Source of the DNA: Paraburkholderia sartisoli
GTDB lineage: Bacteria > Pseudomonadota > Gammaproteobacteria > Burkholderiales > Burkholderiaceae
DNA: 64,000 nt
NCBI RefSeq assembly: GCF_900107685.1
Contig: NZ_FNRQ01000006.1
Span: 372,001 to 436,000, forward strand
Direction of reading: 5' to 3'
Part shown: one piece after another, positions 23,018 through 35,333 of the stretch
Numbering within the stretch: position 1 is the first letter of the stretch
Layout: each line of letters starts with the position of its first letter
Notes under the pieces: model-generated
Seen by the model: only the letters and a program-made list of their open reading frames with translations
What the model was told of the DNA's origin: nothing
Databases searched by the model: none
Program-made: the position numbers and the translations under genes

Positions 23018-23800
23018 CTACCGCAAGCCCGCCGCGGACTCGACGTTGGCGACCATCGCGATGAGCCGTGGCGCGACGTCGTCGAGCAGCGCACGCGCCT
23101 GGGGCGTGTGGTCCATCACCGCGCAGTTGAACACCAGCGTTTCCGAGTCGACCGGCGCGCAGAGCGGCGCCGCGACGGCGTATATGTTCTTCTGCATGTC
23201 GCCGTGCGACACGCACACGCCCAGTTCGGCGTAGTCGCGCATCGCCTGATCCAGTTGCGGCCGGTATCGCTGCCACTGGTCCGGCACGCCGACGCGCAGC
23301 TGGTTCAGCGCCACCTCGCGTTCCTCGGGACCGACGCCCGCGAGCCACGCCCGCCCCATTGCCAGGCGCAGCACCGGATGGACCGCACCGACGTCGGGCC
23401 GCGTGTCGGAGCGTTTGTCCACCGAGCAGCTTTCGATGTAGACCATGTTCGCCTGGTCACGCATGCCGAGCGAAACAGCGCCGCGTATCTGCATCGCGAG
23501 TTCGCGCATGAACGGCCGCGCGATCTGGCGGACGCGCATGCCGGCCAGCAGCGGATAGCCCATCGACAGCACGCCGCCACCGAGCCGGTACTTGCGCGCC
23601 TCGACGTCGTGACGCAAGTATCCGAGCTCCGTCAACGTGAAGGCCAGCCGCGAAACCGTGGCTTTGGACAGTCCCGTGCGTTCGACAAAATCGCGATTGC
23701 CCAGCGTCCTTTCGCCGGGAAGAAAGCAGCGCAATATTTCGAGCCCGCGCGCCAGCGTGACGGCGAACTGGCGGTCATCGTCGTCAGGCAGCGCGAACAT
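23018..23800 (-). CDS. IclR-family transcriptional regulator (copy 1)
   Basis: A 260-residue regulator: a winged helix-turn-helix (residues 10-75, with FVERTGLSKATVSRLAFTL) and an IclR effector domain from about residue 85 (SLGMRDQANMVYIES, MGRAWLAG, and AVAAPLCAPVDSETLVFNC). It is most like the PcaR/PobR branch that governs aromatic or acyl-CoA catabolism. It lies 45 bases downstream of a second, clearly related IclR gene in the same direction, so the two are probably co-transcribed and arose by duplication. Confidence 0.92.
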   Translation of the reverse strand: MFALPDDDDRQFAVTLARGLEILRCFLPGERTLGNRDFVERTGLSKATVSRLAFTLTELGYLRHDVEARKYRLGGGVLSMGYPLLAGMRVRQIARPFMRELAMQIRGAVSLGMRDQANMVYIESCSVDKRSDTRPDVGAVHPVLRLAMGRAWLAGVGPEEREVALNQLRVGVPDQWQRYRPQLDQAMRDYAELGVCVSHGDMQKNIYAVAAPLCAPVDSETLVFNCAVMDHTPQARALLDDVAPRLIAMVANVESAAGLR

Positions 23801-23845: not shown

Positions 23846-24649
23846 TTATTTGCCGGCCGGCGCGACGTCCTGCTGCGCCTCGAGTTCGTGTTCGAGCCTC
23901 TCGACCATCTGGATCAGCTTCGGCGCGATTTCGTCGACGAGCGTATGGCGGCCGAGCTGGATCCGCGGCACGCCGCAGTTGAAAACGAAAATCTCCGAGT
24001 CGATCGGCGCGCGCATCGGCACGGCCACCGCGTGAATGTCGCGCTTGATCTCGCCTTCGCTGAGCGCGAAGCCCCGCTTCCCGAACGCGCGCAACGCGGG
24101 CGCGAGCGATGCGTGCCACGTCTGCCATTGCACCGGATCGCGGGTGCGCACGAGGTCGAGCACCGCGTCGCGCTGGGCAGGCGTGGCGCGTCCCAGCCAC
24201 GCGCGCCCCATCGCCGACGCCAGCACCGGTAGCGTCGCGCCCGTATCCGGCCGGAACGCGAGCGATTCATGCCGGCGCGACGTTTCGACATACACCACCT
24301 GCGTGCGGTCGCGCATGCCGAGCGACACCGACCCGCGTGTCGCGTCGGCGAGTTCCTTCATCAGGGGTCGCGCCAGTTCGCGGATGCGCATGCCCTGCAG
24401 GAACGGATAGCCCACCGACACCGCCGCCGACCCGAGCCGGTATTTGCGCACGCTGTTGTCGTAGCGCAGGAATCCGATCATCGCGAGCGTGTACGTGAGG
24501 CGCGAAACGGTCGCTTTCGACAGGCCGGTTCGTTCGGCGAATTCCTTGTTGCCGAGAACCGGTTCGCCGACCTTGAAGCAGTTCAGCAGTTCGAGACCGT
24601 GCGCGAGCGTCGTCGCGAACTGGGGATTACGGAGCGGATATGAGGCCAT
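23846..24649 (-). CDS. IclR-family transcriptional regulator (copy 2)
   Basis: A 267-residue IclR regulator with AERTGLSKATVSRLTYTLAM in the DNA-binding domain and SLGMRDRTQVVYVETS, MGRAWLGRA and AVAVPMRAPIDSEIFVFNC in the effector domain. It matches copy 1 segment by segment. It is divergent from the acyl-CoA ligase gene, and the 17-bp palindrome at 24723-24739 lies between them, the classical place for an IclR operator. It may also act at the same palindrome at 28168 and 32360. Confidence 0.92.
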   Translation of the reverse strand: MASYPLRNPQFATTLAHGLELLNCFKVGEPVLGNKEFAERTGLSKATVSRLTYTLAMIGFLRYDNSVRKYRLGSAAVSVGYPFLQGMRIRELARPLMKELADATRGSVSLGMRDRTQVVYVETSRRHESLAFRPDTGATLPVLASAMGRAWLGRATPAQRDAVLDLVRTRDPVQWQTWHASLAPALRAFGKRGFALSEGEIKRDIHAVAVPMRAPIDSEIFVFNCGVPRIQLGRHTLVDEIAPKLIQMVERLEHELEAQQDVAPAGK

Positions 24650-24722: not shown

Positions 24723-24739
24723 GTTTAACATAGCGAAAC
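24723..24739. promoter_or_regulatory. putative IclR operator, copy 1 (GTTTC-N7-TAAAC)
   Basis: The site GTTTAACATAGCGAAAC is an imperfect palindrome. The 22 bases from 24721 differ from those from 32358 at one position only. It lies between the IclR copy 2 gene and the acyl-CoA ligase gene, 70 bases before the latter's start. Confidence 0.6.
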
Positions 24740-24809
24740 CCTAATATCGGCATCCTGCCAGGTTGTTAGGCTTGAACCACATCTTCAGTCCCAGTCCGGA
24801 GTGGTTTCA

Positions 24810-26915
24810 ATGCCCTTGTCTTCCAGCCAGCGCGCCGCGCTCGACGCCCTGTTCAATCCCGCATCCATCGCCGTGGTGGGCGCTTCGTCGAACCCTGCGA
24901 AGATCGGCGGGCTGCCCGTCGAATATCTGCTGAACCAGCGTTATCCCGGTGCGATCTATCCGGTCAATCCGAAGCAGGATCGCATTCAGGGCCTGCAGGC
25001 GTGGCCCTCCCTGCGCGACGTCGGCGCGCCGATCGATATGGCGATCTGCGCCGTGCCCGCCTCCGGCGTCATGTCCGCCGTCGAGGACGCCGCCGTCGCG
25101 GGCGTGCGCTCCATCGTGATGTTTTCGTCGGGCTTCGCCGAAACCGGCGAAGCGGGCCGGCGCGCGCAGAACAACCTGCGCGCGCTCGTCGAGGAAAGCG
25201 GAATCCGGCTGCTCGGGCCGAACTGTCTCGGCTTCGTGAACAACCATCAGCGCATCTACGCGACCTTCACGCCGGCGCTGAAAATCGCCGCGCCGCTACG
25301 CGGCAACATCGGGCTCATCAGCCAGAGCGGCGCGTTCGGCATCTTCGCGTTGATGCTGGCGCAGCGGCGCGGCCTCGGTGTCAGTCACTTCGTGTCGACG
25401 GGCAACGAGGCCGACATCGAACTCGCCGATGCGCTCGCGTGGCAGGCGCTCGATCCGGCGACGTCCGTGATCCTCTGCTATCTCGAAGGCGCGCGCGACG
25501 GCGACAAGCTCTGCGCGGCGCTCGAACTCGCGCGCGCGCAGCGCAAGCCGGTGGTGATGTGCAAGGTCGGGCGCACGACGCAGGGTGCGGCCGCGGCGGC
25601 GTCGCACACGGCTTCGCTTGCCGGCTGCGATGAAATCTACGACGCGGTGCTGCGCCAGTACGGCGTCTACCGCGCGAACGACATCCACGAACTGTTCGAC
25701 ATCGGCTATGCGTGCTCGGTCGCGCCGATGCCCGCGTCGGACGCACTCGGCATCGTGTCGATCTCGGGCGGCGCGGGCGTGTTGATGGTCGACGAGGCGC
25801 ACCGGCTCGGGCTGTCGGTGCCCGCGCTGCCGCAAGCCGCGCAGCAGGTGATTCTCGAGCGTGTGCCGTTCGCGTCCGCCGTCAATCCCGTCGACATCAC
25901 GGGCCAGGTGCTCAACGACACCGCGCTGCTGGGCGACGCCGTCGATACGATGCTCGCGCACGGCGGTTACGACGCGCTGGTGTCGTTCCAGGCCGTCACC
26001 GGAATTTCGACGCAGCACCGGCCGCTCGTCACCGATCTCTGGGCGCGCGTGCGCGCCGCGCATCCCGAGCTGACGGTCGCGGTCGTGTCGATTTTCGACG
26101 AAGCGAACCGCGAGTTCCTCGAAGCGCAGCGTTGCCTCACGTTCGAGGAACCCGCCGCCGCCGTGCGCGCGATTGCCGCATTGCACGGCTTTCGACGGCA
26201 CTTCGAGCGCGCCGCCGCGCCCATTGCACTGCCCGAACCGGTGACCCTTCACAGCGCGCGTCTCGACGAAGCCGCCGCGTTGCAACTGCTCGCCGCAGCC
26301 GACATTCCGGTCGTGCAGAGCCGCGCGGTGTCGACGGCTGGCGAAGCCGCCGCGGCGGCCGCGGCGGCCGGCTTTCCGGTCGCGCTGAAAGTGCTGTCCG
26401 CCGACATCGCGCACAAGTCCGACGTGGGCGGCGTCGCGCTTCACCTCGCCGATGAGGCAGCGGTGCGCGCGGCGTTCGAACGCGTCACGCAGAACGCCGC
26501 GCGCGCGGTGCCCGGCGCGCGGATCGACGGCGCGCTCGTCGCGCCGATGATCGGCAACGGCGTCGAATGCATCCTCGGCGTAACGCGCGATCCGGTGTTC
26601 GGCCCGGTCGTGATGTTCGGCCTCGGCGGGATTCTCGTCGAGGTGCTGAAGGACGTGACGTTCCGGCGCGCGCCGTTCGACCTGGCGGAAGCGCACCGGA
26701 TGATCCGCGAGATTCGCGGCTGGCCGGTGCTCGGCGGCGTGCGCGGCCAACCCGCCGTCGACGTCGACGCCATCGCCGAAGCGCTCGCCGCGTTGTCGCG
26801 CTTCGCGGCGGCGAACGCGGACACGATCGAGTCGATCGACATCAATCCGTTTATTGCCCGGCCGCACGGACAGCCCGCCTGCGCCGTCGACGCGCTGATC
26901 GTCGCGCGCGCATGA
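24810..26915 (+). CDS. acyl-CoA/acetate-CoA ligase (ADP-forming) family protein
   Basis: A 701-residue protein with the fused-subunit layout of NDP-forming acyl-CoA synthetases: a CoA-binding domain (FNPASIAVVGASSNPAKIGG, residues 16-35), a succinyl-CoA-synthetase flavodoxin-like domain (GNIGLISQSGAFG, then SHTASLAG with the phosphorylated His region), and a C-terminal ATP-grasp domain (FPVALKVLSADIAHKSDVGG, SIDINPFI). It converts a carboxylic acid, ATP and CoA to acyl-CoA, ADP and phosphate, or the reverse. The start is ATG 24810, with GGAG 8 bases before. The next gene, 35 bases on, is an acyl-CoA dehydrogenase, so the pair probably activates and then oxidises one acid. Confidence 0.88.
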   Translation: MPLSSSQRAALDALFNPASIAVVGASSNPAKIGGLPVEYLLNQRYPGAIYPVNPKQDRIQGLQAWPSLRDVGAPIDMAICAVPASGVMSAVEDAAVAGVRSIVMFSSGFAETGEAGRRAQNNLRALVEESGIRLLGPNCLGFVNNHQRIYATFTPALKIAAPLRGNIGLISQSGAFGIFALMLAQRRGLGVSHFVSTGNEADIELADALAWQALDPATSVILCYLEGARDGDKLCAALELARAQRKPVVMCKVGRTTQGAAAAASHTASLAGCDEIYDAVLRQYGVYRANDIHELFDIGYACSVAPMPASDALGIVSISGGAGVLMVDEAHRLGLSVPALPQAAQQVILERVPFASAVNPVDITGQVLNDTALLGDAVDTMLAHGGYDALVSFQAVTGISTQHRPLVTDLWARVRAAHPELTVAVVSIFDEANREFLEAQRCLTFEEPAAAVRAIAALHGFRRHFERAAAPIALPEPVTLHSARLDEAAALQLLAAADIPVVQSRAVSTAGEAAAAAAAAGFPVALKVLSADIAHKSDVGGVALHLADEAAVRAAFERVTQNAARAVPGARIDGALVAPMIGNGVECILGVTRDPVFGPVVMFGLGGILVEVLKDVTFRRAPFDLAEAHRMIREIRGWPVLGGVRGQPAVDVDAIAEALAALSRFAAANADTIESIDINPFIARPHGQPACAVDALIVARA

Positions 26916-26950
26916 AACGCACCGCATCGCATCGGGAGGGAGGGAGCCTT

Positions 26951-28135
26951 ATGAACCCGAACCAGACACCGCTGGAAACACTTCGACTGCGCGTACGCGC
27001 GTTCATCGACGAAGACGTGATCCCGTGCGAGGACAACGCGCTCGCGCACGACTTCGCCGCACAGGACAGGGTCATTCACGCCTTGCGCGAGAAAGCGCGC
27101 GAAGCCGGCGTGCTTGGCCCCGGCATTGCACGCGAACTCGGTGGCCTCGGGCTGTCGTTTCGCGAGCGCGCCGTGATTCTCGAAGAGGCCGGCCGCAGCC
27201 TGCTGGGCCCGCACGCGCTGCACGCCGGACCGCCCGACGAAACCAACATCCTGATGCTCGCGAGCCTGTGTACCGACGCGCAGCGCGAGCGCTACCTGAA
27301 GCCGCTGGCGGCGGGCACCGCGAGATCGTGTTTCGCGATGACCGAGCCACCGCCGGGCGCGGGCTCCGATCCGTCGATGCTGCTCACGCGCGCGACCCGG
27401 CGCGACGGCCGGTGGGTGATCGACGGCTGCAAGTGGTTCATCAGCGGCGCGCTCGGCGCGGACTTCGCGATCGTGATGGCCCAGACCGACAGCGGACCGA
27501 CGATGTTCATCGTCGATACGGATACGCCGGGCTACCGGATGGTGCGCGTGATCGACGCGCTCGACGGCTTCATCAGCTCGCATTGTGAACTGGACTTCGA
27601 GGGCTGCACGGTCGGCGATGACGCGGTGCTGGGCCAGGTCGGCGAAGGCTTCGGCCACGCGCAGTTGCGGCTCGAACCCGCGCGTCTCACGCATTGCATG
27701 CGGTTCATCGGCGCGGCGCAACGCGCGCTCGATATCGCCGCGCGCTACGTCGCGGGACGCGACTCGTTCGGCAAGCCGCTCGCGCAACACCAGGCCGTGC
27801 AGACGCTGATCGCCGATTCGCAGATCGACCTGTACGCCGCCCGCCTGATGACGTACGACGTCGCGACGCGCATGGACGCCGGACAGTCCGTGAAGCAGGA
27901 ATCGTCGATGGCGAAGGTCTTTGTCTCCGAGGCCGTCGGCCGGGTGGTCGACCGCGCGGTGCAACTGACCGGCGCGTTCGGCATCTCGGGCGACACCGTG
28001 TTGTCCGCGCTCTATCGCGAGGTGCGCCCGTTTCGCATCTTCGATGGCGCATCGGAAGTGCATCGCGCCGCGATCGCGCAGCGCGCGCTCAGGCAGTACG
28101 CGCCGCCCGCGCGCGAGACGTGTCGGGGGCAGTAA
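26951..28135 (+). CDS. acyl-CoA dehydrogenase family protein
   Basis: A 394-residue flavoprotein. The N-terminal helical domain is followed by CFAMTEPPPGAGSDPS, the FAD/substrate loop, and WVIDGCKWFISGA. The C-terminal domain has GRDSFGKPLAQHQAVQ and ends with FRIFDGASEVHRAAIAQRAL, as in the ACAD10/11-like branch; the catalytic acid cannot be fixed by eye. The start is ATG 26951 behind a very strong GGGAGGGAGGGAG site; an in-frame ATG at 26912 overlaps the ligase stop and is less likely. Confidence 0.9.
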   Translation: MNPNQTPLETLRLRVRAFIDEDVIPCEDNALAHDFAAQDRVIHALREKAREAGVLGPGIARELGGLGLSFRERAVILEEAGRSLLGPHALHAGPPDETNILMLASLCTDAQRERYLKPLAAGTARSCFAMTEPPPGAGSDPSMLLTRATRRDGRWVIDGCKWFISGALGADFAIVMAQTDSGPTMFIVDTDTPGYRMVRVIDALDGFISSHCELDFEGCTVGDDAVLGQVGEGFGHAQLRLEPARLTHCMRFIGAAQRALDIAARYVAGRDSFGKPLAQHQAVQTLIADSQIDLYAARLMTYDVATRMDAGQSVKQESSMAKVFVSEAVGRVVDRAVQLTGAFGISGDTVLSALYREVRPFRIFDGASEVHRAAIAQRALRQYAPPARETCRGQ

Positions 28136-28167
28136 AGCGGTTGCGGTCGTTCGACCGCGCCGCGCTG

Positions 28168-28184
28168 GTTTCATCCATATAAAC
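28168..28184. promoter_or_regulatory. putative IclR operator, copy 3 (GTTTC-N7-TAAAC)
   Basis: GTTTCATCCATATAAAC keeps both five-base arms and the spacing of the palindromes at 24723 and 32360 (read on the opposite strand), although the centre differs. It lies 26 bases before the porin start, where a bound repressor would block transcription. Confidence 0.45.
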
Positions 28185-28209
28185 AAAATCTGACATTGGA
28201 GACTTGTTC

Positions 28210-29433
28210 ATGAAAATCCGGCACCTCGGCTGGCTGCTTGGCACACTCGCGTTCAGCGCGCATGCACAGAGCAGCGTCACGCTCTACGGCCTGATCGACT
28301 TCGGCCTCACGTACGTCAACAACACGCAGACGTCGCGAACGGCGTCGGGACTGCACGGCGCGCACCAGTTCGCGGTGAGCGACGGGAGCGCGAACGGCGT
28401 CGCGGGCAGCCGCTGGGGCCTGCGTGGCGTCGAGGATCTGGGTGGCGGCCTTCAAACCGTGTTCGTACTGGAAAGCGGCTACACGCTGAACAACGGCGCG
28501 CTCGCCCAGGGCGGCGCGGAGTTCGGCCGCCAGGCGTATATCGGCTTGCAGGGCGGATTCGGCAGCGTCACGGTCGGCCGTCAATACGACACGTACACCG
28601 ACTTCGTGCAGCCGCTGACGGCGACAGGCCAGTGGGCCGGCTACATGGGCGCGCAGCCGGACGACGTCGACAGCCTGTCGAACACGAGCCGGATCAACAA
28701 TGCGATCAAGTTCCGCACGCCCGATTACCGCGGCTTCGCGGCGGCGGGTCTCTACAGCCTCGGCGGCATCGCCGGGAGCACGACGCAGAACCAGCTCTGG
28801 TCGCTCGGCGCGCATTACAGCGTGGGTTCGCTGCTGATCGCGGCCGGCTACCTGAACGCGCGCGACCCGAACGTGTCGCTGTATGGCACGACGCCGAACA
28901 AGGGCACGACGACGGCCAACAACATAGGCTCGTTCGGCTCACCGGCGACGCCCGAGTCGTATCCGGTCGATGCGGGCTACGCGTCCGCGAAGACGACGCA
29001 GATTGCGGGCGCCGCGCTCCAGTACGCGATCAGCGCGGTCACGCTCGGCTTCGTCGTGACGAACACGCGTTTCGAGGGGCTCGGCTCGACGTCGGGTCCT
29101 AATCCGCTGGGGTACACGGGCACCGCTGCGTTCACGAGCTTCGAGCTGAGCGCGCGCGCGCAGGTCACGCCGGCGTGGCTCGTCGGCAGCGCGATCCATT
29201 ACACGGACCGCAACTCCGTGAATGGCGACGGCGGCGCGAAATATCTGCAGCTCGATCTGGGCACGATCTACAACCTGTCGAAGCGCACGAGCGTCTATCT
29301 GCTGACCGTGCTGCAGCGCGCGAGCGGCCGCGATTCGCTCGGCCAGCCGGCGGTGGCCTCGATCAGCGGTTTCAGCCCGTCCACGACGAACCATCAGATC
29401 GGCGTGCGCGTCGCGTTGCAGCAGCGGTTCTAA
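28210..29433 (+). CDS. Gram-negative porin (OmpC family)
   Basis: A 407-residue outer-membrane porin with a signal peptide ending AHA/QSSVTLYGLIDFG, the standard start of Burkholderia porins. GLRGVEDLGGGLQTVFVLESGY, RQAYIGLQGGFGSVTVGRQYD and the C-terminal strand ending in Phe (VRVALQQRF) are all typical of trimeric 16-strand porins. The start is ATG 28210 with GGAG 8 bases before. It probably admits the substrate of the neighbouring catabolic genes into the periplasm. Confidence 0.93.
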   Translation: MKIRHLGWLLGTLAFSAHAQSSVTLYGLIDFGLTYVNNTQTSRTASGLHGAHQFAVSDGSANGVAGSRWGLRGVEDLGGGLQTVFVLESGYTLNNGALAQGGAEFGRQAYIGLQGGFGSVTVGRQYDTYTDFVQPLTATGQWAGYMGAQPDDVDSLSNTSRINNAIKFRTPDYRGFAAAGLYSLGGIAGSTTQNQLWSLGAHYSVGSLLIAAGYLNARDPNVSLYGTTPNKGTTTANNIGSFGSPATPESYPVDAGYASAKTTQIAGAALQYAISAVTLGFVVTNTRFEGLGSTSGPNPLGYTGTAAFTSFELSARAQVTPAWLVGSAIHYTDRNSVNGDGGAKYLQLDLGTIYNLSKRTSVYLLTVLQRASGRDSLGQPAVASISGFSPSTTNHQIGVRVALQQRF

Positions 29434-29469
29434 CGCGCGCATCGGGCACGCTACGGTCAAGGAGGAAAC

Positions 29470-30819
29470 ATGTTTCCCATAGCAAATCGATGGCGCGGGT
29501 GGATTGTCGTCGTGATGATGTTTCTGTTCATGCTGATCAATTTCGCCGACAAGGCAGTGGTCGGACTGGCCGCCGTGCCGATGATGCACGATCTCGGGTT
29601 GTCGCCGCAGCAGCTCGGGATGGTCGGCAGCAGCTTCTTTCTGCTGTTTTCGATTTCGGGCGTGCTGTTCGGCTTCGCGGCGAACCGCATCAAGACGAAA
29701 TGGCTGCTGGCGGTGCTGTCGATCATCTGGGCCGTCGTGCAGTTTCCGCTGGTGGGCGCGGCGTCGTTTCCGCTGCTGATCGCATGCCGCGTGGTGCTCG
29801 GCGCGGGTGAAGGGCCGGCGTATCCGCTCGCGCTCCACGCGACGTATAAATGGTTCGACAACAGCAGGCGCAACCTGCCGTGCGCGATCGTGCTGCAAGG
29901 CGCGAACACCGGCATGCTGGTGGCGGGTCCGGTCCTCACGTACCTGATCATTCACTACAACTGGCACAGCGCGTTCCTCGCGCTCGGGCTGGCGGGGTGC
30001 GCGTGGACCGTCTTGTGGCTGCTGCTCGGCGAGGAAGGCACGGTCGACGATCACGCGGCCGCGTCGCCCGTGAACGTGAACGTCGACGTGCGCTCGCCCG
30101 TGCCTGTGCGCGTGCGTTATCGCGACCTGATATGCGACCGGACGCTGTTCGGATGCGTGTTGCTCACCTTCGTCGGATATGCCGTGCTGTCGGTGGGCTT
30201 CACGTGGTTTCCCGTCTATCTGCGCCTTGCGCTCGGCTATCCGGCGGCGGACGTGGGCTGGCTGTTCTCGCTGATCGTCTGCGCGGGCATTCCGGCGACG
30301 CTCGCGATGTCAGCCGCTTCGCAGTGGATGGCGGCGCGCGGCGTGAGTTCCCGGGTTTCGCGCGGCGTCATGGCGAGCGTGCCGATCGCGCTGGCGGGGC
30401 TCGCGCTCTTCGGCACGACGACGCAGATCGGCGCGGGCGCGAAGGTCGCGTGCCTCGCGGCGAGCAACGTGCTGAGCCAGCTGATTTTCTTCTTCGCGCC
30501 GCTGATGATCGGTGAAGTGACACCCACGACACAGCGCGCGGCATGGCTTGGCATCAATGCGTCGCTTGGCACGCTCGCGGGGCTCGTCGCGCCGGCGTTG
30601 ATGGGCCATTTTGTCGGCGATGCGAGCAGTGTCGCCGAAGGCTTCCGACACGGTTTCACCGTGCTGGGCTGCGTGCTGGTGCCGTCCGGCCTGCTGGGTG
30701 TGTGGCTGATGAATCCGGAACGATCCGTGCGGCGGTTGCAGCGCCTGTATTCCGCGAACGCAGGCGAGGCGACGATGAGCGCGGCAGGCACGCCGTCGTG
30801 TGGCGAAAAAGCGGCATGA
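29470..30819 (+). CDS. MFS transporter (copy A of a paralogous pair)
   Basis: A 449-residue major facilitator carrier with twelve helices. The N-terminal stretch FMLINFADKAVVGLAAVPMM, then GMVGSSFFLLFSISG, and the loop motif AANRIKTKWL match the ACS-like organic anion:H+ branch. A charged loop (about 195-215) separates the two halves. AGGAGGA precedes the ATG. It is closely related to the carrier at 33924; differences are concentrated in the central loop and C-terminus. It lies 36 bases after the porin gene, probably in the same transcript. Confidence 0.9.
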   Translation: MFPIANRWRGWIVVVMMFLFMLINFADKAVVGLAAVPMMHDLGLSPQQLGMVGSSFFLLFSISGVLFGFAANRIKTKWLLAVLSIIWAVVQFPLVGAASFPLLIACRVVLGAGEGPAYPLALHATYKWFDNSRRNLPCAIVLQGANTGMLVAGPVLTYLIIHYNWHSAFLALGLAGCAWTVLWLLLGEEGTVDDHAAASPVNVNVDVRSPVPVRVRYRDLICDRTLFGCVLLTFVGYAVLSVGFTWFPVYLRLALGYPAADVGWLFSLIVCAGIPATLAMSAASQWMAARGVSSRVSRGVMASVPIALAGLALFGTTTQIGAGAKVACLAASNVLSQLIFFFAPLMIGEVTPTTQRAAWLGINASLGTLAGLVAPALMGHFVGDASSVAEGFRHGFTVLGCVLVPSGLLGVWLMNPERSVRRLQRLYSANAGEATMSAAGTPSCGEKAA

Positions 30820-30859
30820 CGACGTAGCGACTGAGTAATCGGGATGTTGTGTGTGTGAA

Positions 30860-30894
30860 AAGCGGCCTGTCCGGGTGTCCCGGACAGGCCGCTT
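30860..30894. terminator. bidirectional terminator hairpin
   Basis: A perfect 16-bp stem (AAGCGGCCTGTCCGGG with its complement) around a 3-base loop lies between the convergent stops of the MFS gene and the DUF1254 gene. Confidence 0.75.
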
Positions 30895-30901
30895 CGCTTT
30901 G

Positions 30902-32203
30902 TCAGCGAGCCGTGCTTTCGTCGACCCGCCGGACAGCCGGAATGACGTAGTCGCGCGTCAGGATTTCCTTGCGCGGATGGTACAGGCGCAGGATCAGATA
31001 GAAGCGTCCCGCGGGCGCCGGAAGCCAGTTCGAGATGCCCTGTTGCGGTTCCGTGTGCTGGATCTGGATGTCGAGCGATCCGTCCTCGCCGCGGCGCAGG
31101 TCGCGCGAGCGGTCGCCGATCGCGTAGCGCCGGATCGGATTGTCCGCGAAGTAGAAGTCGCTGCCGTAGATCGACACGGACCAGAACGCATCGACGGGCG
31201 GCAGTTGTCCCGCCGGGAAATGCAGCACGTACTGCCGCGCGCCATCGAGCTGCTCGCCGTTCGCGTCGAAGTCGCCGAGCGCGTAGAGCGCTTCGTCGCT
31301 GGCGAGCGCGCCGAGGCCTTTCATCGCCGTACACGCGCGCGCGAGGTAATCGGTGCCGAGGCGCCCGCCCGCGTAGTTGATCGACCACGGCAGCGCGCGA
31401 CGGCTGCGCGTATGACCTTCGATGAGCTGCGCGCCCGCCTTCACGGCGCGCTGCAGGCCCGCGAGCCGCGCTTCGCCGGCAGCTCCCGTATCGACCCGCC
31501 GGCCGCGCGCGAGACCGAGGCGCGCGAACTGCGCGACGAGGCTCGCGTCACGCGCGGGCGGCGGATTGTCCTGCATCGCGCGCGCGAGATTGTCGAAGAA
31601 CGCGATGCCCGAGGGGCTCGACGGCTGATAGTCGACAACCGACTGCGGCAGGCGGCTTTTGCCGGTTGCAGTCAGCGTGAACTGCGCCTGGAAGGCGCGC
31701 GCTTCCTGCATGTCGTCGGCGCCGTCGATCAGCACGCGCCCCAGCACCCATACGAGATTCGTCGGACAGCGGATTTCCTCCGTGCCGTCGGGCAGCGTGC
31801 CGGACCAGTCGGGACCGACCAGCGCGAAGCGCGATGCGTCCGGACCCACGACGCGCGGGCCGAGATTGCGAAAGTTGTCGCTGTACGCGTCGACCAGTTC
31901 GATCACGAAGTAGCGGCCGGTCGGCGCGGGCGTCGTCAGCACGACCGGGCCGTCGGCCAGGTTCAGCCAGGCCATCGAGTACAGCAGGTCGTTGGCCGGC
32001 GTGACGACGTCGCGGTCCTCATGCGTCCACGGTCGCGGACAGTGCGAAAACTGGTTGACCGGCGCGCGTCCGTATTCGGTGGGCGCATCGACGGCCGTCA
32101 TCAGCGCGCACGTCCTGACGATCTCGACGAGCGGATAGCCGTAGACGTAAGCCTGAACGCCGGCCACATAGGCCCACTCTTCCTGTGCAGTGTTACTGGT
32201 CAT
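30902..32203 (-). CDS. DUF1254/DUF1214 protein (copy A)
   Basis: A 433-residue protein with the two domains that always travel together: DUF1254 in the N-terminal half (YVYGYPLVEIVRTCAL, VVTPANDLLYSMAWLNL) and DUF1214 at the C-terminus (FWSVSIYGSDFYFADNPIRR, NWLPAPAGRFYLILRLY). No signal peptide is seen, so it is probably cytoplasmic. I chose ATG 32203, with AGGAGG about 10 bases before. Function is unknown. It faces a second family member at 32458 across a promoter carrying the 17-bp palindrome. Confidence 0.88.
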   Translation of the reverse strand: MTSNTAQEEWAYVAGVQAYVYGYPLVEIVRTCALMTAVDAPTEYGRAPVNQFSHCPRPWTHEDRDVVTPANDLLYSMAWLNLADGPVVLTTPAPTGRYFVIELVDAYSDNFRNLGPRVVGPDASRFALVGPDWSGTLPDGTEEIRCPTNLVWVLGRVLIDGADDMQEARAFQAQFTLTATGKSRLPQSVVDYQPSSPSGIAFFDNLARAMQDNPPPARDASLVAQFARLGLARGRRVDTGAAGEARLAGLQRAVKAGAQLIEGHTRSRRALPWSINYAGGRLGTDYLARACTAMKGLGALASDEALYALGDFDANGEQLDGARQYVLHFPAGQLPPVDAFWSVSIYGSDFYFADNPIRRYAIGDRSRDLRRGEDGSLDIQIQHTEPQQGISNWLPAPAGRFYLILRLYHPRKEILTRDYVIPAVRRVDESTAR

Positions 32204-32359
32204 GCTGGAACGTCCTCCTGGGTGACTGCGTGTATGTGTCTCCGCGCGGACGGTGAGCAACGCGCGGCGCCACGGCCGCTCCACTGGCCATGGTCGTCGC
32301 ACGCCGCGCCCGCCCGCGGATGGTGCGAGGCCAGTATAGGCAGGCGTCCCGTCCAAAGT

Positions 32360-32376
32360 GTTTAACATGGCGAAAC
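32360..32376. promoter_or_regulatory. putative IclR operator, copy 2 (GTTTC-N7-TAAAC)
   Basis: GTTTAACATGGCGAAAC differs at one base from the site at 24723. It lies between the two divergent DUF1254 genes, 82 bases before the plus-strand one. Confidence 0.6.
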
Positions 32377-32457
32377 CCTGGTTCCGTTATGCGGTGGCCG
32401 GCGTAGGCTTGATTCCGTCTCTTTTGTCCTGCTTGTTCTGTTTAGGGAGCGGTATTC

Positions 32458-33843
32458 ATGTCCTTTTCCACGAGCGCACGCGCCACGACGCATGCGCATC
32501 CGGCTGCAACCCCGAACCCGGCGGATGACCTCGCGGCGCTCGCCCGCGACGCCGTGCTCTACACGCTGCCGCTATTCGAAATGGCGCGTTCGCGCGCGAC
32601 GACGTGCCCGCGTCGCGACGACAGCGGCCAGTTCGCCGGCGAGAGCCCGAATTCGACGCTCTGCTGGCTCAACCGCCTGATGCGCGACCGCCAGCTACTC
32701 GGTCCGCAACACCGCAAGGTCGTGACGCCCAACAACGACACGCTGTACATCAGCGGGTGGCTCGACGTGGGCGAGGCGCCGCTACTGGTGACGGTGCCCG
32801 ACACGGCCGACCGCTATTACGTGCTTGGCCTGCTCGACTTCTATACGAATCCGTTCAACTCGATCGGCACGCGCACGACGGGCAACGGTGCCGGAAAATT
32901 CCTGCTGTATCACCGCGACACACCGCTGCCCGCCGATATCGATCTGACGGATATCACGCCCATCGCCTGCCCGACGCGCGACGTCTGGATGATCGGACGC
33001 GTGCTGGTGGATGGCCCGCACGACCTGCCGGCCGTGCATGCGCTGCAGGACCGCTTTCTTCTGACGACGATCGATGGTGGCCCCGCGCAACGCCGTTTCG
33101 ACGTCGGCATGGACCGAAGCGAAACGGCGGGCGACGCGCGACGCTATGCCGAAGTCGTCAACGCCGCGTTGCTGCGCAACCCGCCTCCGGCGGCTGAGCG
33201 TGCGTATCTCAGCCGGTTCGCCGCTGTCGGGATCGGCGCCGGTTTCGATGCGCCAACGTCTGCCGCGCCTGACGAAGACGCGTTCGCCGTGCTGGGCGCC
33301 GCGCTCGAAGCCGTGATCGCGGAGCTGGACGTGCCGCATCCGTCGGCACTTGGCGGTGGCTGGTTCCTGCCGGTCGAGGTGCGCGATTCGTTCGGCGACG
33401 ACTACTTCGCCCGCGCGCATGTCTGCTGGAACTACATCGGCGCGCTGGGCATCGAGGAGGCGATGTACTTCTCCGCCGATTGCGACAGCGAAGGACGGCC
33501 GCTCGACGGACGCCACGCGTACGAACTGACGTTCGCGCCGGGCGGCCTGCCGCAGGCGCAGGCGTTCTGGTCGCTCACGATGTACGACAAGACGTCGTGC
33601 ATGCTGGTGGACAACGTCATCGACCGTTACTCGATCGGCGACCGCTCCGCGCACCTGCGCGATGACGAAGCGGGGCTGACGCTGCGACTGTCGGCGCAGG
33701 CGCCGCGGGACGCCGCGCTGCAATGCAACTGGCTGCCCGCACCGGCCGCGCCGTTCTATGTGACGTTGCGCGTGTATATCCCGGGCGCGGCGCATCTGGA
33801 GCAGCGCTTTTCCTGGCCTCCGATCCGGCGCATCGAATCATGA
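32458..33843 (+). CDS. DUF1254/DUF1214 protein (copy B)
   Basis: A 461-residue paralogue of the protein at 30902. DUF1254 segments: DAVLYTLPLFEMARSRAT and KVVTPNNDTLYISGWLDV; DUF1214 segments: FWSLTMYDKTSCMLVDNVIDR and NWLPAPAAPFYVTLRVY. AGGGAG precedes the ATG. There is no signal peptide. The downstream MFS carrier (80 bases on) mirrors the arrangement around copy A, so gene and carrier seem to have been duplicated together. Confidence 0.88.
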   Translation: MSFSTSARATTHAHPAATPNPADDLAALARDAVLYTLPLFEMARSRATTCPRRDDSGQFAGESPNSTLCWLNRLMRDRQLLGPQHRKVVTPNNDTLYISGWLDVGEAPLLVTVPDTADRYYVLGLLDFYTNPFNSIGTRTTGNGAGKFLLYHRDTPLPADIDLTDITPIACPTRDVWMIGRVLVDGPHDLPAVHALQDRFLLTTIDGGPAQRRFDVGMDRSETAGDARRYAEVVNAALLRNPPPAAERAYLSRFAAVGIGAGFDAPTSAAPDEDAFAVLGAALEAVIAELDVPHPSALGGGWFLPVEVRDSFGDDYFARAHVCWNYIGALGIEEAMYFSADCDSEGRPLDGRHAYELTFAPGGLPQAQAFWSLTMYDKTSCMLVDNVIDRYSIGDRSAHLRDDEAGLTLRLSAQAPRDAALQCNWLPAPAAPFYVTLRVYIPGAAHLEQRFSWPPIRRIES

Positions 33844-33923: not shown

Positions 33924-35333
33924 ATGTTGAAAGAATCAACCAGCCGGTGGCGCGCATGGGTTGTGGTGGCGCTGGTGTTCCTGTTCATGCTGATCAATTT
34001 CGCCGACAAGGCCGTGATCGGCCTCGCGGCCGTGCCGATGATGCGCGACCTGGGGCTGACGCCCGAGCAGTTGGGCCTCGTCGGCAGCAGCTTTTTTGTG
34101 CTGTTCTCGATCTCGGGAATCGTCTTCGGCTTTATCGCCAACCGGGTCAAGACGAAGTGGCTGCTGGCGATACTGTCGATCGTGTGGGCGGCCGTGCAGT
34201 TTCCGCTGGTCGGCGCGGTGTCGTTTCCGTTGCTGATCGCGTGCCGCGTGCTGCTCGGCGCGGGCGAAGGGCCGGCCTACGCGCTCGCCATCCACGCCAC
34301 CTACAAGTGGTTCGACAACAGCCGGCGCAACATCCCGACCGCGATCGTCCAGCAGGGCGCGAACATGGGCATGCTCGTGGCGGGACCGTGCCTCACGTGG
34401 CTGATGATCCACTACGACTGGCACGCGGCGTTTCTTGCGCTCGGCGTCGTCGGCGCGATCTGGACCACGCTCTGGCTGCTGTTCGGCGCGGAAGGCACCG
34501 TCGACGAATCTTCGCAGCAGGACGTGGCCGACGCGTCGCCGCGTTCCGCTTCTACTTCCGCTCCCGCTCCCGCTCCCGCTCGCGTGAATGCGCGTCTACC
34601 CGTTCGCGTGCCGTACCGCGCGCTGATGTGCGATCCGACGCTCGTCGGCATTTTCCTGCTTTCGTTCGCGGGCTTTCTCGTGCTTTCGCTGTGCTTCACC
34701 TGGTTTCCCGCCTATCTGCGACTCGGCCTCGGCTATTCCGCGACCGACGCGGGCTGGCTCTTCTCGGTCATCGTCGGCGCGGCGATTCCTGCTTCGCTGG
34801 TGATGTCGTGGTTCTCGCAGTATCTGTTTGGCAAAGGCGTGTCGTCGCGCGCGTCGCGTGGCTTTGTCACGAGCGGCGCGATTGCGTTGACCGCGCTCGC
34901 GTTTCTGTGCACGACCACCGATATCAGCGCTCCTTTGAAAATCGTCTGCCTGACATTGGGCGCGGGTTTTGGCCAGCTGATCTTTCTCTTCGGCCCGTTG
35001 ATGATCGGTGAAGTCACGCCGCCTGCGCAGCGGGGTGCGTGGCTCGCGATCAACAATTCGGTCGCGACGCTCGCCGGATTTGTCGCGCCCGCGCTGATGG
35101 GGCGCTTCGTCGGCGCCGCGCACAGCCGCGCGGCCGGCTTCGAACACGGGTTTCTGTTGCTGGGCTCGGTGCTCGTCGTGGCAAGTGTCGCCGCGTTCTG
35201 GCTGATCCATCCCGAACGCTCGATGCGCCGGTTGAGCGGCGCCGCTGCGTTCGCTGCGTTGGGCGACAGCCGCGAACGCAGCGACATCCATCAGCCCGCG
35301 TGCTTGCCGGACGAAGCAACCGGCGCGGGCTGA
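33924..35333 (+). CDS. MFS transporter (copy B of a paralogous pair)
   Basis: A 469-residue, twelve-helix carrier almost superimposable on the one at 29470: FMLINFADKAVIGLAAVPMM, GLVGSSFFVLFSISGI and KWFDNSRRNIPTAIVQQGANMGMLVAGP recur with few changes. The central loop is longer and rich in Ala, Pro and Ser. The start is ATG 33924, behind AAGGAGGA. Probably co-transcribed with the DUF1254 gene before it. The substrate is unknown, likely an organic acid. Confidence 0.9.
   Translation: MLKESTSRWRAWVVVALVFLFMLINFADKAVIGLAAVPMMRDLGLTPEQLGLVGSSFFVLFSISGIVFGFIANRVKTKWLLAILSIVWAAVQFPLVGAVSFPLLIACRVLLGAGEGPAYALAIHATYKWFDNSRRNIPTAIVQQGANMGMLVAGPCLTWLMIHYDWHAAFLALGVVGAIWTTLWLLFGAEGTVDESSQQDVADASPRSASTSAPAPAPARVNARLPVRVPYRALMCDPTLVGIFLLSFAGFLVLSLCFTWFPAYLRLGLGYSATDAGWLFSVIVGAAIPASLVMSWFSQYLFGKGVSSRASRGFVTSGAIALTALAFLCTTTDISAPLKIVCLTLGAGFGQLIFLFGPLMIGEVTPPAQRGAWLAINNSVATLAGFVAPALMGRFVGAAHSRAAGFEHGFLLLGSVLVVASVAAFWLIHPERSMRRLSGAAAFAALGDSRERSDIHQPACLPDEATGAG

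Follow-up and report, generated by a model that had tools for sequence, protein, structure and literature searches.

Binding sites of IclR-family regulators have been surveyed by Suvorova and Gelfand (2021, PMC8222616), who reported the consensus GTTYCRYW3RYGRAAC for 54 IclR orthologous groups, and described both tandem sites at a spacing of 18-22 nt and sites made of three boxes. In the GTT-11-AAC subgroup of their group 1, sites of 17 bp with GTT/AAC arms accompany an adjacent IclR gene and one or two neighbouring operons. The same survey lists PcaU and PobR of Acinetobacter as IclR-family regulators with three-box sites, and TphR of Comamonas sp. E6 with the motif TTTTTGCGCATAGCGCAAAAA (Table 1). 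The locus described here lies in a window of 64,000 nucleotides (the whole stretch of DNA analysed) from Paraburkholderia sartisoli and is like the GTT-11-AAC subgroup in these features, and possibly also in a second site, here at 21 nt. It differs in having two IclR genes rather than one and in its right arm, TTAAAC, which departs from the symmetric consensus and whose asymmetry is conserved. Similar to the PcaU and PobR systems, it combines a divergent regulator and target, a palindrome plus a possible extra half-site, and a catabolic target, although its operator sequence is different and activation is here only putative. The likeness to TphR consists of the CATAGCG centre and the control of an organic acid pathway by an IclR protein, whereas the TphR operator is symmetric and the genes differ.

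The cluster contains two IclR-family genes on the minus strand, IclR-A (23018..23800), which is the second of the pair, and the operator-proximal IclR-B (23846..24649), both with PF09339 and PF01614. They are followed on the plus strand by acs (24810..26915; PF13549, PF13607, PF13380), an NDP-forming acyl-CoA ligase whose closest solved structures are 8wzu and 9y43, the acyl-CoA dehydrogenase gene acd (26951..28135; PF00441, PF02770, PF02771), a porin gene (28210..29433; PF13609), and the transporter gene MFS1 (29470..30819; PF07690). Two DUF1254/DUF1214 genes with PF06863 and PF06742 are also present, namely dufA (30902..32203, minus strand), which has the solved relative 3u07, and dufB (32458..33843, plus strand), and a second transporter gene, MFS2 (33924..35333, plus strand; PF07690), completes the set. 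Literature searches on DUF1254, DUF1214, IclR regulators that occur in pairs, and this combination of genes found no relevant paper.

Three 17-mers had been claimed in a sequence-only reading of this DNA at 24723, 28168, and 32360, and all of them are present there. Site 1 (operator 1, GTTTAACATAGCGAAAC, 24723..24739) lies between the divergent iclRB and acs, and site 3 (operator 2, GTTTAACATGGCGAAAC, 32360..32376) between the divergent dufA and dufB. Site 2 (GTTTCATCCATATAAAC, 28168..28184) is located between acd, which ends at 28135, and the ATG of the porin gene at 28210, both on the plus strand; of the three sites, each proposed to be in a divergent intergenic region, site 2 is therefore the exception (no strand is assigned to the sites). 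The near-identity of sites 1 and 3 at about 7.6 kb could be confirmed, with 21 of 22 bases identical (GTGTTTAACATRGCGAAACCCT) at a distance of 7,637 bp, and this 22-mer had zero matches across 100 shuffles of the window. Calling the sites palindromes was correct in part, as only 5 of the 8 pairs are symmetric in sites 1 and 3, and 4 of the 8 in site 2.

The 5.93-Mb genome (22 contigs) was examined by pattern searches, and all matrix ranks given below refer to the window. GTTT-N9-AAAC occurs 48 times in the genome, against 30 times for the reversed control. From these 48 occurrences, GTTTC-N7-TAAAC, counted on either strand, was found exactly three times, at sites 1, 2, and 3. The frequent random occurrence in coding DNA that would speak against a regulatory pattern was therefore not seen. 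Allowing up to two mismatches to the 17-mer GTTTAACATNGCGAAAC, the whole genome contains sites 1 and 3 and, on a different contig, a single copy with two mismatches. This copy (GTTTAACATAGCGATTC, G000 contig C19:394169-394185, L078 3169) has a similar CCTGATT continuation and precedes a gene whose start resembles a secreted glycosidase, and it is without counterpart in G036, G125, and G178.

When the window was compared with the published consensus (GTTYCRYWWWRYGRAAC), sites 1 and 3 were its two best positions, matching at 16 and 15 of 17 bases. A weaker box (GTTCCGTTATGCGGTGG, 32381..32397, plus strand) lies 21 bp downstream of operator 2, inside the published spacing of 18-22 nt; it matches the consensus at 14 of 17 positions, has a conserved CCGTTAT core, and is a probable second or third IclR box. 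Its counterpart at acs (ATATCGGCATCCTGCCA, 24744..24760, plus strand) is conserved in relatives and matches at 8 of 17 positions, and its role as a second box is doubtful. If both regions are read as three-box sites of the group 2 consensus, the dufB site matches at 12 of 16 positions and the acs site at 10 of 16.

The distribution of the operator was examined in 148 Paraburkholderia genomes. The exact 17-mer is present in 11 of them, and an IclR-B orthologue (73-100% identity) occurs in the same 11 and no others, the next relatives having 58% identity or less. The 17-mer is thus found in 11/11 genomes with the orthologue and in 0/137 of the rest, an overlap with a chance probability of ~8e-17 if the genomes were independent, which phylogenetically they are not. 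All 21 copies fall within the cluster, one before IclR-B and one before dufB, except in G018, where the two genes share one site. Sixteen of the 17 positions are invariant across the 11 genomes while the flanks have diverged, and site 1 shows no difference among the 10 genomes with the acs promoter. In a sample of 399 genomes from the family, only four contained the 17-mer, all belonging to the 11. The named records with an IclR-B orthologue are Paraburkholderia gardini, P. saeva, and an uncultured Paraburkholderia. A wider regulon was considered and rejected, the 2-mismatch sites elsewhere in the 11 genomes being mostly scattered. A few such sites (GGTTAACATAGCGGAAC, GTTTAACAACGCGGAAC) recur among more distant relatives and are not found in this genome.

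The single site of G018 belongs to a minimal form of the cluster, which consists of the IclR pair, the operator, and dufB only. Its operator (L070, G018:C206, 11211-11227) is a hybrid, with acs and dufA missing between. The left flank shows 0.76-0.87 identity to the acs site of relatives versus 0.52-0.57 to the dufB site, and the right flank 0.83-0.90 to the dufB site versus 0.64-0.66 to the acs site. A search for a dufA orthologue in G018 found none, the best matches having 34-36% identity. The hybrid probably arose when recombination between the operators, which are direct repeats, removed the intervening DNA; because G018 is listed with 10% contamination, this origin is likely rather than proven.

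In addition to these copies, related sites could be identified at distant IclR loci. Tandem IclR pairs with a first copy of 52-58% identity occur in G171 and G040 (same genus), G189 and G212 (another genus of the family), and G620 and G716 (another family), and in all six, GTTTCGATATCTTGAAC, GTTTTGATATCTTGAAC, or GTTTCGCTATCTGGAAC stands before the first IclR gene, oriented like GTTTCGCTATGTTAAAC of the window. The clusters of G620 and G716 include relatives of acd (59-60% identity) and acs (48-49%), with tripartite tricarboxylate receptors between these in G620. In G171, G040, and G212, a second similar site was found 5-11 kb away (L173 16461-16477, L174 10632-10648, and L172 15770-15786), that of G171 near an enoyl-CoA hydratase gene, which suggests that the two-site layout of a local regulon recurs there with other acyl-CoA genes. 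Furthermore, 13 single-IclR loci (~48% identity) contain two 17-bp GTTY-N9-RAAC sites 20 bp apart. Over 27 IclR loci, 28 sites of this form were found versus 0.35 expected, and none could be found at 12 more distant IclR loci (39-48%). The paired sites of L073-L076 and L079-L087 lie upstream of a single IclR gene and, where flanks are covered, beside relatives of acyl-CoA dehydrogenase and ligase. To our knowledge, this predicted separate regulon has not been reported before.

Conservation also extends to putative promoter elements. Downstream of the operator, the hexamer TAGGCT, the presumed -10 element of acs (24767..24772, plus strand) and of dufB (32404..32409, plus strand), is invariant and at one fixed distance in 21/21 copies, acs and dufB alike, suggesting a promoter design common to both genes. 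On the dufA side of site 3 lies AGTATA, which reads TATACT on the minus strand (32333..32338), a putative -10 of dufA that is kept in 10/10 genomes with dufA. A simple sigma-70 scan at sites 1 and 3 found no consensus promoter and no recognisable -35, so the -10 assignments derive from conservation. If they are right, the operator would cover roughly -56 to -40 at acs and dufB, and -50 to -34 at dufA.

Because of this position, and because no -35 can be recognised, acs and dufB appear somewhat likelier to be activated in response to an effector than to be simply repressed, and we give activation an even chance. Classical repression through the same operators and regulators, in which IclR bound to the 17-mer and the adjacent box would impede RNA polymerase in the -35 region and be released by an effector, is a tentative second choice. 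The downstream box would indeed overlap the presumed -35 region, but the 17-mer itself would be upstream of it, the box is poor at acs, and the promoters look weak unaided.

The sequence-only reading had counted site 2 as a third operator of the same regulon, a proposal that we consider unlikely. In its favour, GTTTC-N7-TAAAC is confined to three sites that all lie in this cluster, and four close species retain GTTT-N9-AAAC at the porin gene. However, site 2 matches the consensus at only 12 of 17 positions (~190 window positions do no worse), and a matrix built from the homologous operators places it 19th in the window. Its fifth base is not kept among close relatives, three relatives have another centre (GTTTTACYYACATAAAC), and the more distant G139 and G115 each have one broken arm, whereas sites 1 and 3 stay invariant in the 11 genomes. 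Given this poor fit and the decay in relatives, site 2 was rejected as an equivalent operator. Since the conserved block around it extends to the ribosome-binding site, it may instead form part of the leader or the promoter of this porin gene. That porins in general share this leader was also rejected, as its exact sequence has one occurrence genome-wide and is missing from the other readable porin leaders. Read-through from acs-acd may nevertheless bring the porin gene and MFS1 into the regulon. Further downstream, a perfect palindrome (GGAAACATGTTTCC, 29464-29488) covers the ribosome-binding site and start codon of MFS1 and runs into an IclR-like 17-mer. This candidate (29472-29488), third on the matrix, overlaps the MFS1 start codon and is fully kept in one of three close relatives, and it was treated as a probable chance occurrence.

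With regard to the regulators, IclR-A and IclR-B are ~50% identical and lie 45 bp apart on one strand, and both contain HTH_IclR and IclR_C domains above the curated cut-offs. Their scores for TIGR02431 (PcaR/PcaU/PobR), 130.5 and 108.3 bits, are below the cut-off of 284.75 bits. The closest solved relative of IclR-B (residues 8-252, E 7e-56) is 5WHM, an IclR-family regulator for which we know of no operator or target. Tandem IclR genes in conserved order were observed in all 17 loci examined from two families. In a tree of 50 IclR proteins, the 17 operator-proximal copies form one clade (99/95), and the second copies fall into two groups, a single clade not being rejected. Thus, either the duplication predates the divergence of the sampled loci of the two families or the pair has moved as a unit. 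Judged from the tree and the loci, the pair is an ancient duplication that has been inherited together, and tests of single proteins may therefore miss a joint action.

This history bears on the idea of an obligate hetero-oligomer, in which each IclR protein would read one arm of the asymmetric operator. The conserved pair order in 17 loci, the well-supported operator-proximal clade, and the fact that the operator keeps both its asymmetry and its direction with respect to the first gene are consistent with such a complex. On the other hand, the two proteins have almost the same recognition helix, and asymmetric sites also occur at single-IclR relatives, which rules out asymmetry as proof of a heterodimer. 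An obligate complex is therefore improbable on present evidence. We are similarly doubtful of the broader view that an obligate IclR pair has been retained as a unit in two families of Burkholderiales, the acyl-acid pathways under its control differing by lineage.

Taken together, sites 1 and 3 are very probably IclR operators of a local regulon, a prediction that is well supported because conservation, co-occurrence, consensus fit, and related sites at distant IclR pairs all point to it. The partial symmetry of the operator, the negative search for a sigma-70 consensus promoter at both sites, the weakness of the second box at acs, and the phylogenetic dependence of the co-occurrence counts weigh against it. 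It is very improbable that the 17-mer is the site of another regulator or a non-regulatory repeat travelling with the cluster, in view of its match to the IclR consensus, its invariance against diverged flanks, the fixed promoter geometry, and the homologous sites before homologous IclR pairs elsewhere. Thus, the proposal of one catabolic regulon under the adjacent IclR genes stands for sites 1 and 3, given their co-occurrence with the regulator in 148 genomes, their consensus fit, the homologous sites at tandem IclR pairs, and the absence of conserved sites elsewhere in the genomes. It is not supported for site 2, and neither is a direct control of the porin and MFS genes from an operator there. 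The sites, their conservation, their co-occurrence with the regulator gene, and their consensus match can be read from the DNA itself; we infer protein binding, promoter elements, the sign of regulation, and the substrate as follows. Sites 1 and 3 would be bound by a regulator from the tandem pair, IclR-B and perhaps IclR-A as well. A dimer would occupy the 17-mer, and a second unit may sit on the weaker box located 21 bp downstream. The bound protein would set transcription from the promoters with TAGGCT at the fixed distance, somewhat more probably by activating acs and dufB in response to an effector, with autoregulation of the iclR pair, than by simple repression. In this way, acs-acd, dufA, dufB-MFS2, and the iclR operon itself would form one local regulon for the uptake and CoA-dependent degradation of a carboxylic acid.

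The arrangement is well conserved and of a familiar kind. It turns a previously unannotated cluster into a defined, testable regulon of Paraburkholderia, in which a single predicted switch links an acyl-CoA ligase pathway with two uncharacterised DUF1254/DUF1214 proteins. As dufB is the only target present in all 11 genomes with the IclR pair, the effector of the regulator should point to the DUF1254 substrate. Moreover, the long-conserved pair of IclR paralogues would provide a clean case for studying why a local switch needs two members of the same family.
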